36,979 nt of DNA from a virus. Below are positions 1-35,593 of this stretch, in pieces; position 1 is the stretch's first letter; every line of letters begins with the position of its first letter. The notes under the pieces are model-generated. The model was not told the DNA's origin. It was given only the letters and a program-made list of their open reading frames with translations, and ran no database searches. The stretch lies in the IMG/VR virus record IMGVR_UViG_3300022693_004340, positions 1 to 36,979 of that record, one strand, 5' to 3'. The position numbers and the translations under genes are program-made.

Positions 1-1191
1 TTAGCTCTCGTCGCTGCTGGCATCTTTGGCATCCGTGACGACGCCATTTTCAGATATTTCCACGCTGACGGGCTGAATGTCTGCTCCATCACGCATGGCC
101 ATTAATCCATCGACGATCAGGGCTTCGCCTGGGGCGATGCCGTCGGTGACGATCCACGCGTTTTGATAACTTCCGTGTTCGGTCAGCTCGCGTTGCTCCG
201 CCTTGCCATCAACGGCCACAAAAGCGGTGAGCGTGCCGTCTGCAGCCCGCGAGGTGGCCCCTTGGGGCACCATAACGGCGCGTGTCGTGCCAAGCTCGAT
301 TTCGACGCGCAGGAATTGCCCCGGCAGAATATGTCGCTCCGGATTGTCAAAACGGATGCGGAACTCAAAGCTGCCGGTTGTGGTGGAGACGCGCGTACCG
401 GGTGACTCAAGCGTGCCCTTTTGATCGTATTGGACGCCGTTCTCCAGCGTGAGCGTCAGATCCAGCCCTTCGCCCCGTTGCAGCGTGCCACCTTCCATCA
501 ACGCGCGAACCTCTGCGAGGCGTTTACTGGATTCCTCAACATCGATGTAGATCGGATCGAGACGGGTCACCGTGGTGAGCGCATTAGCCTGATTAGCTGT
601 GACCACGGCCCCAACGGAAACTTCGGGAACCGCGACAATGCCCGTGATCGGGCTGCGGATCTCGGTCCGTTCCAGATTCAGTCGAGCCAGTTTGAGTTTT
701 GCGTTTGCCGAGCTCAGCTCCGCCTTGTTCTGCAGCACCGTCACGCGGGCGTTTTCCACGTCCTCAATGGTCACGCCTGTTCCCTGCAGGCGCTCATAGC
801 GAGATAATGTGGCCTCGGCTGCGGTGACGGCGGCCTCTGCGCGCGCGACTTCGGCCTCGGCTGCGGCGACGTCTACCTCAAAGGTGTCACCTTCAATGCG
901 AAACAGAACATCGCCTTTTTCGACCTTGCGCCCGGCTTCATAGGGTATTTCGCTAATAGTGCCGTCGACGCGCGGGCGGATATTGACCTCTTCATAGGCG
1001 ATAGCGCGTCCGGGCAGCGTTACCGAGAAAGGCACCTGTGCCTCGCGGAGTGTGATCACCCCAGCCGGTATGGGGCCGCGATCACCGCCGGGCATCGGTT
1101 GGGCAGACGCACTCGCGGATAAAGCCAGAGAAATCAGCCCGGCGCTGATCCATTTCAGCGGGGCGTAAATATAAGTCGACGAATAAGCCAT
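1..1191 (-). CDS. RND efflux pump periplasmic adaptor (membrane fusion protein)
   Basis: Periplasmic adaptor that would link an inner-membrane RND transporter to an outer-membrane channel. The 396-residue length is normal for the HlyD/AcrA-like family. A hydrophobic N-terminus ending ASASAQ (about residues 10-31) looks like a signal peptide. Next come a lipoyl-like segment (around 65-100, with the typical EAGRKVEKGDVLFRIE stretch), an Ala/Glu-rich coiled-coil hairpin (about 105-170), the second lipoyl half with IRSPITGIV, and a beta-barrel region. The start has AGGA five bases upstream. The gene is complete, and its stop lies at the window edge. The transporter gene is expected just outside the window. 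This is host DNA beside the prophage. Whether insertion altered its promoter cannot be told from the sequence. Confidence 0.93.
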   Translation of the reverse strand: MAYSSTYIYAPLKWISAGLISLALSASASAQPMPGGDRGPIPAGVITLREAQVPFSVTLPGRAIAYEEVNIRPRVDGTISEIPYEAGRKVEKGDVLFRIEGDTFEVDVAAAEAEVARAEAAVTAAEATLSRYERLQGTGVTIEDVENARVTVLQNKAELSSANAKLKLARLNLERTEIRSPITGIVAVPEVSVGAVVTANQANALTTVTRLDPIYIDVEESSKRLAEVRALMEGGTLQRGEGLDLTLTLENGVQYDQKGTLESPGTRVSTTTGSFEFRIRFDNPERHILPGQFLRVEIELGTTRAVMVPQGATSRAADGTLTAFVAVDGKAEQRELTEHGSYQNAWIVTDGIAPGEALIVDGLMAMRDGADIQPVSVEISENGVVTDAKDASSDES

Positions 1192-5003: not shown

Positions 5004-5231
5004 TTAACTGTTGAGGACTTCTTCAGCCCAAGCGCAGATCGCAGCGTCTTCACCAGCGCCGAGCGCGGAATACCCCGCCAACTGGACCTCAAGCGGTGTG
5101 TGATCAGGAATATCGGATGGATAGGCGCCGCCCGCCTCAATCACGGCCGTAGCAAAACTGTCGCGGCGCTCTTCACGCGATAATGCCAGCAGCGTTTCGG
5201 CGAATGTGGTGATCGGGCAGGGGAGGCTCAT
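5004..5231 (-). CDS. Small early-left protein, unknown function
   Basis: A 75-residue acidic protein with no family I recognise. It starts at an ATG that overlaps the upstream stop by four bases (ATGA), which implies translational coupling as the second gene of the leftward early operon. There are no membrane segments or metal-binding clusters. The text is rich in Ala and Glu (LLALSREERRDSFATAVIEA), suggesting a compact helical protein. Because it is under the left operator it is expected to be repressed in the lysogen and expressed early after induction. Confidence 0.65.
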   Translation of the reverse strand: MSLPCPITTFAETLLALSREERRDSFATAVIEAGGAYPSDIPDHTPLEVQLAGYSALGAGEDAAICAWAEEVLNS

Positions 5232-5470
5232 GCGGAGCGATCACCTGTCAGGGGGTAACCGCGATCGCGGGCATAATTGCGCACGCGTTCCATCAATGAC
5301 GTTTCATCAATGATCTGATGCATCGAGCCCGGCAGGTTTTCCGGGCGATAGATTTGGCCGCGTTGCGCCTTCAGCTCCGCCCAAGCGAAGTGAAAGACCT
5401 CGGGCGAATTTGCATGCTGTTCGGGGTTGCGAAGGATCGCAGCGGCGTCTTTGACGGGGTGGTTCGACAT
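5228..5470 (-). CDS. First gene of the leftward early operon, unknown function
   Basis: An 80-residue soluble protein, not recognised. The ATG has GGAGG five bases upstream, and that site lies in the 3' arm of a perfect inverted repeat. It is the first gene after the left operator/promoter. By analogy with lambdoid phages this slot often holds a delayed-early or anti-host function, but nothing in the sequence points to a specific activity. It is coupled to the following gene by an ATGA overlap. Confidence 0.65.
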   Translation of the reverse strand: MSNHPVKDAAAILRNPEQHANSPEVFHFAWAELKAQRGQIYRPENLPGSMHQIIDETSLMERVRNYARDRGYPLTGDRSA

Positions 5471-5475
5471 TCAAT

Positions 5476-5495
5476 CCTCCATCGGTTGATGGAGG
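5476..5495 (-). promoter_or_regulatory. Inverted repeat over the ribosome binding site of the first leftward gene
   Basis: On the minus strand CCTCCATC, loop AACC, GATGGAGG form a perfect 8-bp hairpin whose 3' arm contains the GGAGG ribosome binding site. If the transcript starts upstream of the repeat, the site would be sequestered. The promoter predicted here would start within the 5' arm, so the repeat may instead act as DNA, for example as a protein-binding site. Confidence 0.5.
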
Positions 5496-5497
5496 TG

Positions 5498-5525
5498 AAG
5501 ATATAGGAGTTAAATCCTATGTCAA
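5498..5525 (-). promoter_or_regulatory. Leftward early promoter (PL-like)
   Basis: A perfect TTGACA -35 box (minus strand, 5520-5525) lies between the two left operators. A TATCTT -10 box (5498-5503) lies 16 bases downstream and abuts the promoter-proximal operator. Repressor bound to either operator would block polymerase. Confidence 0.7.
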
Positions 5526-5551
5526 TCATAAATAGGATTTAACTCCTATAT
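5501..5551. promoter_or_regulatory. Left operator pair (OL-like), perfect 20-bp inverted repeat
   Basis: ATATAGGAGTTAAATCCTAT at 5501-5520 is repeated exactly inverted at 5532-5551, with an 11-base spacer that carries the -35 box. Each 18-bp core (ATAGGAGTTAAATCCTAT) is itself a near-palindrome (16 of 18 positions), so each arm is likely one dimer site. The same core recurs next to the repressor gene, which supports a role as the repressor's operators. Confidence 0.8.
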
Positions 5552-5674
5552 AGCGTGGAATCATCATCTGAAGCAGGTGCGTTTCAGGGCGACTTAGGCA
5601 TCGCCAGTGCTTCGTCTAGGGGGAGAAAATTCCGCTGTCTGCGGGATATCAGAGAGGGTTCTGTTCGTAAGCTG
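5552..5674 (-). terminator. Short intergenic region with a weak terminator-like hairpin
   Basis: Between the left operators and the stop of the membrane-protein gene. On the minus strand CCGC (5641-5644), a five-base loop and GCGG (5632-5635) are followed by AATTTTC. The four-base-pair stem is weak, so termination here is only possible. Nothing else stands out. Confidence 0.3.
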
Positions 5675-6199
5675 TCAGCTGGCTTGACCGCTTGCCGCCA
5701 GTTCTGTAGCGCGCTTTTCTGCTTCTAGAATTGTTGGATATCTGCCCTCGCCATTTACAGAGATGCCATCTGAGTATTTGTGCAGTTCAAAGCCCTTATA
5801 CATCCTGAGAAAGCGTCCTTCAGCGTGCGGATCGGATGAATAGGACGGCAGAGGTGCTGGAGAGGGCGTGCGAGGCGCGCTTGCTGAAGGAACGTGAATA
5901 GGTGCGAGGTGGGGGCGTTCTGTTTGGAGTGGCGGTTGTGCGAGCTGCTGTACTATTCGTCTAGTGTTAATAGCAGTCGCGACTTGAGCCTGAACCAGTT
6001 GCGCAGCTAGCACTAAGCCTAGTCCGGATGCGGCTCCGACAGCGCCACTGCCGAGATAAATTAGTGCGGATGTTCCTGATGGATTGTCGCTAGATCCCCA
6101 GATCAACGCAGTGCCCAATACTGCACTAATGCAGACCATCCAGCCTGCAATTTCTATCACATTGGCGAGCGTCTTTGCGGTAGTAAATGTCTGATTCAA
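5675..6199 (-). CDS. Lysogeny-region membrane protein, candidate superinfection exclusion or cargo
   Basis: A 174-residue protein with two hydrophobic segments (about 13-35, and 45-70, the latter rich in Gly/Ala: LGSGAVGAASGLGLVLAAQL). A proline-rich linker follows (about 90-122), then a small C-terminal domain (about 128-174) ending in an EAEKRATELAASG helix. The start is a TTG with AGAGGA suitably spaced. It sits between the two operator pairs, directly downstream of the repressor on the same strand, so it is probably transcribed with it in the lysogen. Genes in this slot often encode superinfection exclusion or immunity functions. That role is inferred from position only; the family is not recognised. 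Confidence 0.7.
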   Translation of the reverse strand: MNQTFTTAKTLANVIEIAGWMVCISAVLGTALIWGSSDNPSGTSALIYLGSGAVGAASGLGLVLAAQLVQAQVATAINTRRIVQQLAQPPLQTERPHLAPIHVPSASAPRTPSPAPLPSYSSDPHAEGRFLRMYKGFELHKYSDGISVNGEGRYPTILEAEKRATELAASGQAS

Positions 6200-6326
6200 A
6201 TTATGTTTCCTCTGTGTCTCTAGCTCTCTACAATCCGCCGTTCCGCCTGAAATATGGTGGGGCGTGTTTCAATTATGCTGATTTGTGGGTGGGTTATTGG
6301 AGTCGATAAATTGACAGACCAGCAAA
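6200..6326. other. Intergenic region between repressor and membrane-protein gene
   Basis: 127 bases. A TTGACA occurs on the plus strand near 6311, which would read against the repressor gene, but no convincing -10 box follows. No terminator is seen between the two leftward genes. Confidence 0.3.
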
Positions 6327-6686
6327 TCATTCATTTTCTGCATCGTCTTCTTTCGGAGACTGACCCGAAGCTGCAACAAGACCTCGTCCATAGCCGAGAA
6401 GCTGTTGCTTTAGCGGCTCGGGTAGCTGAGCAAATAGACGCACAATTTCTTGTTCTTCTGCGGTCTGGGCGTTGCTCATGAACTCCTCAAGCGTCGTCCC
6501 TAGGGCGGCGCAAATCTTTCGCATGGTGGTGACGCGAGGACTGGAGTTGTTCTTGAACATCGAACGTATCGCTGAATTGTCTAGCCCGGCCCTTACGGCA
6601 AGACCCGCAGCGGTGAGTGTTGGATCGGAGTCAATCCGATCTCGCAACCTGAGTAAAAAGGGTTCTGTGATTTGGTCTTGGTCCAT
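6327..6686 (-). CDS. Short XRE-family phage repressor (CI-like, no peptidase domain)
   Basis: A 119-residue protein with an N-terminal helix-turn-helix (about 20-75; LAVRAGLDNSAIRSMFKN followed by MRKICAALGTTLEEFM) and a C-terminal segment VRLFAQLPEPLKQQLLGYGR. That segment recurs in short phage repressors and probably mediates dimerisation. There is no LexA/S24 autocleavage domain, so induction by RecA-stimulated self-cleavage is not expected. It diverges from the Cro-like gene across the right operator pair and would repress both early promoters and possibly itself. The ribosome binding site is weak. It is the best candidate for the lysogeny master regulator. Confidence 0.82.
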   Translation of the reverse strand: MDQDQITEPFLLRLRDRIDSDPTLTAAGLAVRAGLDNSAIRSMFKNNSSPRVTTMRKICAALGTTLEEFMSNAQTAEEQEIVRLFAQLPEPLKQQLLGYGRGLVAASGQSPKEDDAENE

Positions 6687-6720
6687 GTAGGCATTTTCTA
6701 CTAGGCGCGGGTGATTTGAA

Positions 6721-6762
6721 ATCGGATCAAACTCCTTGACGCAGATAGGAGTTTGATCCTAT
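6721..6762. promoter_or_regulatory. Right operator pair (OR-like)
   Basis: ATAGGAGTTTGATCCTAT at 6745-6762 is an operator core nearly identical to the left pair. An inverted, less perfect copy, with GGATCAAACTCCT at 6724-6736, lies six to nine bases away. The pair sits between the divergent repressor and Cro-like genes and brackets a promoter, as in lambda OR. Confidence 0.78.
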
Positions 6763-6765
6763 CCA
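6736..6765 (+). promoter_or_regulatory. Rightward early promoter (PR-like)
   Basis: TTGACG at 6736-6741 and TATCCA at 6760-6765, with an 18-base spacer, overlap the right operator core. The predicted transcript start falls at about 6772, on the ATG of the Cro-like gene, so the mRNA may be leaderless. Confidence 0.6.
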
Positions 6766-6771
6766 GTGATC

Positions 6772-6987
6772 ATGGAAGAATTCATTTCTGAAATCCGGGC
6801 CTATGCCACCCGTGTTGGGGTTATGCCAACAACTGTCATTCAGCGCGCAAAGGCGGGGAATGGCAGCACGTGGCGTCGTTGGGAAAGTGGCGACAGCAGC
6901 CCGACCCTGCAAACCGTTGACCGGTTGCGGAACTACATGGCTGAGAACCCACCGTCTGATGTAGCTCAAGAAGGGGATGCCCAATGA
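6772..6987 (+). CDS. Cro-like helix-turn-helix regulator
   Basis: A 71-residue protein with a helix-turn-helix region (YATRVGVMPTTVIQRA, then STWRRWESGDSSPTLQTVDRL), similar in layout to small XRE/Cro proteins. It is the first gene of the rightward operon and diverges from the repressor, the position of cro. A GTG lies six bases upstream in frame. However, the promoter predicted from the operator would start the RNA at the ATG itself, and no good ribosome binding site exists for either, so the ATG was chosen. It overlaps the next gene by four bases. Confidence 0.75.
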   Translation: MEEFISEIRAYATRVGVMPTTVIQRAKAGNGSTWRRWESGDSSPTLQTVDRLRNYMAENPPSDVAQEGDAQ

Positions 6988-13144: not shown

Positions 13145-13421
13145 GTTACGCTTGCTCCCAAACGTAACGCCAACGTAACGCCTTAAGTAACGGAGGTAAT
13201 GCGATGAAAAGATTGCGGAATACTTGAAGAAAGTCTGTGAAGTTACGGTGTTACGCGGCAGGGAGAGCTTCCTTGACGGGCAGGCGCGTGAATGGTGCGC
13301 ACAAAATCACCGTAACGCCGTTACTTAGATCTATCTGATTGGAAAAAGATATTAATAAACAAGGTCTTGGGTGAGTTACGGAGGCCGCTACGGTGGCGTT
13401 ACACTCAAATCAAAGCGTAAC
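13145..13421. repeat. Iteron-like cluster of GTAAC/GTTAC repeats, candidate replication origin
   Basis: Eleven copies of the pentamer GTAAC or its complement GTTAC occur, most extended to GTAACG/CGTTAC, at 13145, 13164, 13175, 13187, 13242, 13250, 13312, 13320, 13375, 13398 and 13417. Spacings of 8-11 bases recur, and an AT-rich stretch (GATATTAATAAAC) lies at about 13349-13361. The location right after the replication ATPase and the density make a replication origin or a cluster of initiator sites the best reading. Confidence 0.65.
13204..13328 (+). pseudogene. Possible small gene with a frame break
   Basis: An ATG with GGAGG seven bases upstream opens a frame of only seven codons (MKRLRNT). 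A -1 shift in the AAAA run after the start would give a 41-residue protein, MKKIAEYLKKVCEV... to ...HRNAVT, that has normal protein composition and runs to a TAG. This could be a decayed small gene, a sequencing indel or a programmed shift; the run is too short for a strong slippery site. It overlaps the repeat cluster. Confidence 0.3.
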
Positions 13422-13460
13422 GGGCGAAGAAGGGCAGTGGAAATGATGATGAGGGTGAAC

Positions 13461-14048
13461 ATGACAGGTAGTTCGGCAATAGCAGGCAGCGTGCTATGCA
13501 ATCCTGGTCCGGCGCGGTGGCATGCGTTGTTCGTAGCATCTCAGAAGGAAGAGCAGGCCGAAGCGTGGCTGGCACGCAGAGGTGTCTATGGGTTCCACCC
13601 TGTGACTACCAAGAAGACTAGCAGGGCCGGGAAAGCGCGGCAGTACCATCGGCGATATCTGCCGGGCTACGTGTTTGCCCGTTTCCCAGGTGAAGCGATT
13701 GTACATGCGGTCACAGCCTGTCCGTTTGTCCATGGCGCACTTAGCAGGACGGACGGATCTTGGGGTGTGATCCTCCCGAAAGACCTGCGCTCTCTTCATG
13801 CGATGCGCAAGCTAGACGAAGAGGCTGACCGGTCACGCAGGAGTGCGGAGCGTAAGCGGCGCAGAGACGCGGTTGTGAAGCGGGGTGATGCTGCATTGTT
13901 CAGTTCAGGTGCTTTTGCGGGCCATCGCTGTGAGGTGGTCGAGTTGCTTGCTAACGGAGGTGCACGCGTCAATTTCAGTCTCTTTGGCCGCGAGGTGCTA
14001 ACGACCACCGATACTGCTGATCTAGTTACGATCCACCGCAACGGTTGA
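13461..14048 (+). CDS. NusG/RfaH-family transcription antitermination protein
   Basis: A 195-residue NusG paralogue. The NGN domain (about 19-118) has WHALFVASQKEEQAEAWL, the hallmark RRYLPGYVFARF and the central FVHGALSR. A basic linker (about 120-138) and a KOW domain (about 139-190; KRGDAALFSSGAFAGHRCEV, then FSLFGREVLTT) follow. Such proteins ride on RNA polymerase and suppress pausing and termination in specific operons. GAGGG five bases before the chosen ATG supports this start; ATGs 18-12 bases upstream are possible. It lies alone between the origin-like repeats and the late operon. The leader of that operon has hairpins, so it probably acts as the late-gene antiterminator (inference). 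Confidence 0.82.
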   Translation: MTGSSAIAGSVLCNPGPARWHALFVASQKEEQAEAWLARRGVYGFHPVTTKKTSRAGKARQYHRRYLPGYVFARFPGEAIVHAVTACPFVHGALSRTDGSWGVILPKDLRSLHAMRKLDEEADRSRRSAERKRRRDAVVKRGDAALFSSGAFAGHRCEVVELLANGGARVNFSLFGREVLTTTDTADLVTIHRNG

Positions 14049-35330: not shown

Positions 35331-35359
35331 AGCGGCGCAGTGTTCGTTATTTGTTCTTC

Positions 35360-35593
35360 ATGCGTGTTAAGGACTACCCTCTGCCCACAGTCGAAATCGC
35401 TTGCAAACACTGCAAGCGACGTGGCCGATATAGCCTCGATCGGTTTGTTGAGATAGTGGGCGGAGAGACCTTGCTGCCGTGGGCGCTCCACATCATTTCA
35501 CAGGACTGCCCCGAAGATCGTCCCAGCCCGCGCAATCTGGATGGCAAGTGCAACCCCTATTATGCGCAAGATTGGGCGCGCGCCGTGAAGTGA
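35360..35593 (+). CDS. Small zinc-ribbon-like protein
   Basis: A 77-residue protein with IACKHCKRRGRYSLDRFVEI, a CxxC pair, and further cysteines near 48 and 63, consistent with a zinc site. No ribosome binding site is clear, and an in-frame TTG lies three codons upstream. It is the last rightward gene; a short GAGGC/GCCTC hairpin overlaps its stop. Possibly a small regulator. Function unknown. Confidence 0.65.
   Translation: MRVKDYPLPTVEIACKHCKRRGRYSLDRFVEIVGGETLLPWALHIISQDCPEDRPSPRNLDGKCNPYYAQDWARAVK

Follow-up and report, generated by a model that had tools for sequence, protein, structure and literature searches.

The window, i.e. the whole stretch of DNA that was analysed, comprises an entire virus record, 36,979 bases long (IMG/VR record IMGVR_UViG_3300022693_004340). 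It encodes an HK97-type portal, and the terminases nearest to its own are those of an Agrobacterium phage and a Labrenzia phage. At the left end lies a host-like RND efflux periplasmic adaptor gene (1-1191, minus strand), which is probably host DNA adjoining the attachment site; a tRNA gene was looked for in the window and none was found. A NusG-like antiterminator of the UpxY/LoaP/RfaH family (13371-14048, plus strand; E=3.5e-10, under the curated cut-off) sits between the replication and packaging genes and is a candidate antitermination factor. The immunity region, which very probably derives from a temperate phage of the Rhodobacterales ("marine-type" bacteria), comprises the following features:

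5228-5470, minus strand: 80-aa first gene of the left operon, preceded by PL and the leader hairpin
5476-5495, minus strand: predicted leader hairpin CCTCCATC-AACC-GATGGAGG, pairing the Shine-Dalgarno (SD) sequence of the first left gene (z=-4.0)
5498-5525, minus strand: putative promoter PL, TTGACA (5525-5520) and TATCTT (5503-5498), spacer 16, leading leftward into an operon with a ParB-like gene and an integrase
5503-5520, no strand: putative operator OL1 between the -35 and the -10 of PL, with the minus-strand core TAGGATTTAACTCCTA and the TTGACN-TAG-N10-CTA layout in 41 loci
5532-5549, no strand: OL2, putative second left operator, 29 bp upstream of OL1
5675-6199, minus strand: 'rex'-position gene with a membrane-protein-like product, lying between the repressor and OL in a slot that varies among relatives
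6327-6686, minus strand: predicted immunity repressor, XRE/HTH, 119 aa, Pfam HTH_3 (E=1.1e-6)
6687-6704, no strand: OR3, weaker putative third site, core TAGGCATTTTCTACTA at 6688-6703, adjoining the repressor start codon and lying over the expected PRM
6721-6738, no strand: OR2, imperfect putative operator with an AAG-N10-CGA frame, its end overlapping the PR -35
6736-6765, plus strand: putative promoter PR, TTGACG (6736-6741) and TATCCA (6760-6765), spacer 18
6745-6762, no strand: OR1, putative operator in the -35/-10 spacer of PR
6772-6987, plus strand: cro-like gene, first in the right operon, encoding a small HTH protein of 71 aa
6984-7307, plus strand: second gene of the right operon, 107 aa, also adjoining the cro-like gene in relatives L001 and L002

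No S24 peptidase domain was detected by Pfam in the repressor, and its AlphaFold model is all-helical with seven helices (pLDDT 83), bearing out the original prediction of a repressor without an autocleavage domain. By sequence, its best relative among proteins of solved structure comes from prophage Lp1 (E=8.5e-11), and a fold search of the PDB returned weak generic HTH matches only. Since a protease domain is missing, induction would proceed by another route, e.g. via an antirepressor. The alphaproteobacterial SOS box GTTC-N7-GTTC was rejected as an induction link, as 3 sites were found versus 1.2 expected and 14 of 100 shuffles reached 3; the SOS-box-like sequence at 35342-35356, just before a small ORF at 35363, was not conserved in the relatives and is probably due to chance.

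Palindromes and promoters of the immunity region

As the original prediction had it, an 18-bp core occurs twice in a perfect 20-bp inverted repeat on the left, as ATAGGAGTTAAATCCTAT at 5503-5520 and as its reverse complement at 5532-5549 (arms 5501-5520 and 5532-5551), and the right-hand copy ATAGGAGTTTGATCCTAT lies at 6745-6762 with an imperfect partner at 6721-6736/8. Allowing up to 3 mismatches, the 18-mer was found at only three places in the window, compared with 0.00 expected from 100 shuffles, and the core TAGGA-N6-TCCTA occurs three times in the 37 kb, all in the immunity region, whereas a Markov-1 simulation gave 0. TAG-N10-CTA, a looser frame, was detected five times in the window, with four occurrences within the immunity region, of which the fourth, in OR3, had previously been missed. 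The frame of OR2 is weaker because one of its ends overlaps the -35 of PR. Dispersed stoperator-type sites were searched for in the window by the 18-mer and frame scans and none were found, the sites being confined to the immunity region.

The hexamers that had been proposed for PL on the minus strand and PR on the plus strand do exist. A promoter scan of the window yielded 2 sites versus 1.6 expected, with PL as one of them and PR absent from the output, so the hexamers do not exceed chance on the window alone; what supports them is their conserved place in about 40 relatives.

Co-variation of operators and repressor across relatives

A pattern scan of all viral contigs with the window's own 18-mer produced 112 stretches; since the motif is not constant among phages, searching by protein was the better way. 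The window repressor matched viral contigs at 82%, 72% and 47% identity, and a search with an alignment of the viral-contig repressors detected 18 loci in bacterial genomes, nearly all Rhodobacterales, together with more viral contigs. In evenly drawn samples, 6 of 397 genomes from the family and 8 of 393 from the order contained a repressor match, counts that include weaker homologues, some with an S24-like extension (L197 and L199 continue into an S24-like domain). Among the named phages in the collection searched, the window query gave no repressor match at E<0.001, and a second repressor query gave partial HTH matches only. One relative, L203, carries its immunity region on a 33.8-kb circular plasmid of Phaeobacter inhibens, pP66_i, possibly a phage-plasmid.

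Both OR and PL were readable in 41 loci (35 non-redundant), mostly from Rhodobacterales genomes and IMG/VR contigs. In all of them a protease-free HTH repressor of about 120 aa lies between two operator groups placed over two divergent early promoters. Across these loci OR1 is located 73-76 bp upstream of the start of the repressor gene and keeps the frame TAG-N10-CTA, apart from a few sites with a one-base deviation; in the left promoter, TTGACN-[TAG-N10-CTA], the operator fills the spacer; and the second left site of the relatives begins about 28-31 bp upstream. A third frame site between OR2 and the repressor start was found in 24 of 35 loci versus 7 of 105 control stretches. Thus, the expected conservation of the motif beside homologous repressors failed for the exact 18-mer, whereas the frame and the geometry were retained in 41 of 41 loci, so that the prediction passes its own refuting condition in a changed and stronger shape; the layout of the proposed two-operator switch stood as well, with OR3 as a third right-hand site added to the two pairs. 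Upstream of the repressor gene, TANNNT occurs 5-8 nt before the start in 20 of 35 loci versus 10% expected, which suggests a leaderless repressor mRNA in many relatives. The window's own repressor gene has no TANNNT at the leaderless position, and its PRM has no clear -10 there.

The gene content of the 'rex'-position slot differs from relative to relative (L001 to L194), several of the products being membrane- or secreted-protein-like. Six proteins from the slot were scanned with Pfam, and five gave no match, only that of L002 being named (DUF7946/7947). The slot is a candidate source of exclusion or defence genes expressed in the lysogen.

Inside the conserved frame the bases differ by phage (TAGGAG, TAGATT, TAGGCT, TAGTCT, TAGTAG, TAGGTA and others), and they change in step within a phage. 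Compared with the PL operator of its own phage, OR1 agreed at 5.26 of 6 specificity positions, versus 2.46 of 6 for other phages (0/100,000 permutations). The same was determined for OL2 (4.71/6 with its own PL site versus 2.48/6 with others, 0/20000) and OR2 (4.11/6 versus 3.13/6, 0/20000), while the inner bases of OR3 followed the operator type weakly (137/20000). By partial Mantel tests with overall identity regressed out, the repressor columns that best tracked the half-site were 42 and 36 (r=0.36 each, 0/2000 permutations), followed by residue 28 (0.25). Operator similarity correlated with residues 36 and 42 at r=0.44, with the HTH at r=0.36 and with the C-terminal half at r=0.00. In the repressor model, the third helix spans 39-46, with residue 42 inside it and residue 36 just ahead of it; in a standard HTH alignment, the two would correspond to positions that set specificity in the 434 repressor.

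Because label-shuffling permutations leave some relatedness, 20 disjoint nearest pairs defined outside the HTH are the better control, and here operator similarity was 0.91 in the 11 pairs with residues 36/42 alike and 0.50 in the 9 pairs with different ones (p=0.00024). The cleanest pair is L120 and L139, whose repressors are 85% identical and carry G36D and L42N in the HTH, and whose operators differ, the two proteins differing also at two residues directly after the recognition helix. Repressors with D36/S42 face several half-sites (GAG, GAC, GTA, GCA), and therefore residues besides 36 and 42 contribute to specificity. No two of the four prophages in one Albibacillus kandeliae assembly have the same operators, and the two in one Epibacterium assembly differ from each other, which in this small sample is as would be expected of distinct immunity types.

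These data bear on two other readings of the palindromes. As perfect inverted repeats, 20 bp long on the left, they could be RNA hairpins, terminators or recombination sites rather than operators, but they have no T-run, each lies in a -35/-10 spacer at a fixed distance throughout the 41 loci, and the sequences of the left and right copies vary together, and also with residues of the repressor. Moreover, several relatives have a separate GC-rich terminator-like stem of their own before OL2, and the sole Rfam match was a microRNA model far below threshold, nothing real; the chance that this reading is right is negligible. Alternatively, OL and OR could match by shared descent or gene conversion alone, without selection through the repressor, given that related phages have whole immunity regions in common. 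OL and OR are usually 0.5-2 kb apart and yet change in step, often with an unrelated gene between them, and operator changes track two HTH residues in independent pairs, which leaves this explanation very improbable.

It is thus very probable that the palindromes are bound by a small phage repressor that maintains dormancy. The inference in the original prediction that the short XRE repressor reads these sites gains support from the OL/OR co-variation and from the tracking by HTH residues 36 and 42 over 41 loci. In the explanation that we favour, to which as a whole we assign a probability of about 0.9, the 119-aa repressor, presumably a dimer, would occupy TAG-N10-CTA palindromes before the left operon (OL1/OL2) and before the right one (OR1/OR2). 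Bound there, it would block PL and PR, since in each pair the inner site occupies the -35/-10 spacer; the layout and its conservation are observed, and the block of polymerase is what they point to. The invariant part of the HTH, probably including Arg41, would read the invariant TAG/CTA frame, whereas residues 36 and 42, as judged from the co-variation, would set most of the inner half-site and hence the immunity type. OR3, beside the repressor start, probably serves autoregulation. Sites and repressor appear to have changed together through residues 36 and 42, giving many lock-and-key types in one family. In L121 (1937-2287), the HTH resembles one repressor subfamily and the C-terminus the other, which suggests that the DNA-reading part has been exchanged among repressor types.

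The Cro-like protein and the left leader

The Cro-like protein has a four-helix HTH-like fold. The cro-like gene was found in 34 loci, and each time its start lies 9-12 bp after OR1, with the start codon 6 nt after the PR -10 in the window, and an SD-like match of at least 4 bases precedes it in only 3 of the 34; with the start so near OR1 and the -10 and so few SD matches, its mRNA is probably leaderless. Cro-like sequence hardly tracked the operator type (Mantel r=0.12, 174/5000). Three co-resident Albibacillus prophages have Cro-like proteins 0.93-1.00 identical and three different operators, those of L120 and L139 are 99% identical beside different operators, and Cro-like identity followed the repressor C-terminus (r=0.56) better than the intervening HTH (r=0.21). 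The term 'lambda-like' in the original prediction therefore suits the layout of repressor and operators, but apparently not the Cro-like protein, which does not seem to read the same inner bases.

This near-blindness to the operators speaks against a classical Cro competing for the same inner bases, and would leave a Mor-like antirepressor, as in TP901-1, or a reader of the invariant frame. A full lambda logic, with repressor and Cro-like protein on the same operators and OR3 as the Cro-preferred site, would agree with a small HTH fold encoded at the cro place and with an OR3-like site overlapping the repressor start region, and a protein reading only the invariant TAG/CTA frame would be compatible with the tests. 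We consider it rather unlikely, in view of the weak tracking of operator type, the near-identical proteins beside different operators and the closer link to the repressor C-terminus; in addition, distant Cro-like homologues in the phages RcapNL and Pyei1 adjoin G-rich sites without the TAG frame.

Somewhat better placed, not far short of an even chance, is a Mor-type antirepressor that would bind the repressor and either lift it off the DNA or make it a co-repressor of PRM, a reading that concerns the partner protein only and is compatible with the repressor-operator explanation favoured above. The CI of TP901-1 likewise has no protease domain, and its Mor has an HTH fold with no demonstrated high-affinity DNA binding (PMC11149083), matching a protein that is nearly blind to operator type and co-varies with the repressor C-terminus. 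Mor, however, contacts the N-terminal domain of CI, while the co-variation here is with the C-terminal part and could arise from linkage or shared descent too, and Foldseek gave generic HTH matches only (E>0.6), with no Mor among the matches listed.

On the left side, 31 of 32 distinct leaders have a predicted hairpin in which the SD of the first left gene is paired; the stem sequence varies between leaders, and eight of them gave z-scores of -2.9 to -5.5. The 5′ arm of the hairpin lies mostly between the PL -10 and the predicted transcription start, which by promoter geometry is nearly always an A right after the pyrimidine-rich 5′ arm; in the window the predicted start is at ~5490, downstream of most of this arm. 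By folding, the predicted SD opening averaged 0.52 in PL-started RNA versus 0.13 in read-through RNA and was higher in 32 of 32 leaders, a gap that is partly built in, as starts were predicted as the first purine after the -10, not mapped, and a shorter RNA can only lose pairing partners; the window's own value was a modest 0.25. Since transcripts from the predicted start would lack most of the 5′ arm, perhaps only the read-through mRNA is locked by the hairpin. Such a lock would stop lysogenic read-through from making left-operon proteins, because the repressor operon is oriented like the left operon and points toward PL. In L120 and L139, a long CGGTGCC...GGCACCG inverted repeat after PL replaces the SD hairpin.

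The co-variation of repressor and operators throughout the family is the most valuable part of these results. It has long been asked how a temperate phage can switch immunity type, given that every one of its operators has to change at the same time. With about 35 natural repressor/operator pairs built on one scaffold, a specificity linked in large part to two positions, and sister pairs differing by little besides residues 36 and 42, the family makes this question directly testable. The four differently keyed prophages in one genome fit immunity as a selective force. It is a tentative view, at distinctly less than even odds for its two parts jointly, that immunity type and lytic partner are uncoupled, two residues rewriting specificity and a near-constant Cro-like protein serving all types, be it as a Mor-like antirepressor or by reading the invariant frame, and that the hairpin locks the read-through mRNA. 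For a switch of the lambda style, a Cro-like protein that is apparently indifferent to operator type, and a translation lock with one half embedded in a promoter, would amount to new wiring.

Comparison with known systems

In T4 gene e, longer transcripts from upstream fold and hide the ribosome site, while near-promoter transcripts start without the 5′ arm (PMC3014915). The near-promoter transcript of the window is likewise predicted to begin without most of the 5′ arm of the SD-hiding hairpin. Here, however, PL, putatively under repressor control, takes the place of the near promoter, and it would be the mRNA of the repressor operon in the lysogen that forms the long transcript, with transcript ends predicted rather than mapped.

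Rhodobacter phage RcapNL and Paracoccus phage vB_PyeM_Pyei1 have a homologous cro-like gene (35-37% identity) with a divergent repressor adjoining it and a palindromic site in the PR spacer. Their repressors differ from that of the window in being annotated as CI-like, with 212 and 232 aa by the annotated coordinates, and their sites are G-rich and GGGGA...TCCCC-like.

The cluster A mycobacteriophages resemble the present family in that one phage group has a spread of repressor/site specificities that give immunity types (PMC6550527). Their stoperators are many asymmetric sites with a 13-bp core distributed genome-wide, and both repressor regions influence specificity (PMC6550527), whereas the window's sites are palindromic and restricted to the immunity region, and only the HTH tracks specificity.

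With CI/Mor of the Lactococcus phage TP901-1, the window shares a protease-free repressor with a helical C-terminus and a small HTH partner that may do without DNA binding of its own (PMC11149083). The partner in the window differs in having no detected homology to Mor; and OL, OR and OD of TP901-1 lie within <1 kb, in contrast to the two pairs that flank the repressor operon here.

The window's immunity region resembles in layout the cI-OR-cro regions of the lambdoid phages lambda, 434 and P22, with divergent repressor and cro-like genes, a multi-site right operator, a second operator set beyond the repressor operon, an accessory (rex-type) gene between repressor and OL, operators over promoters, and an HTH recognition helix that sets the immunity type. 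It differs from them in a repressor of 119 aa without a LexA/S24-type autocleavage domain, an OL of two sites, a Cro-like protein that hardly tracks the operator bases, a cro-like mRNA that looks leaderless and a left leader with an SD-hiding hairpin. Judged by sequence and conservation, the switch in the window is a real lambda-type two-operator switch with a protease-free repressor.
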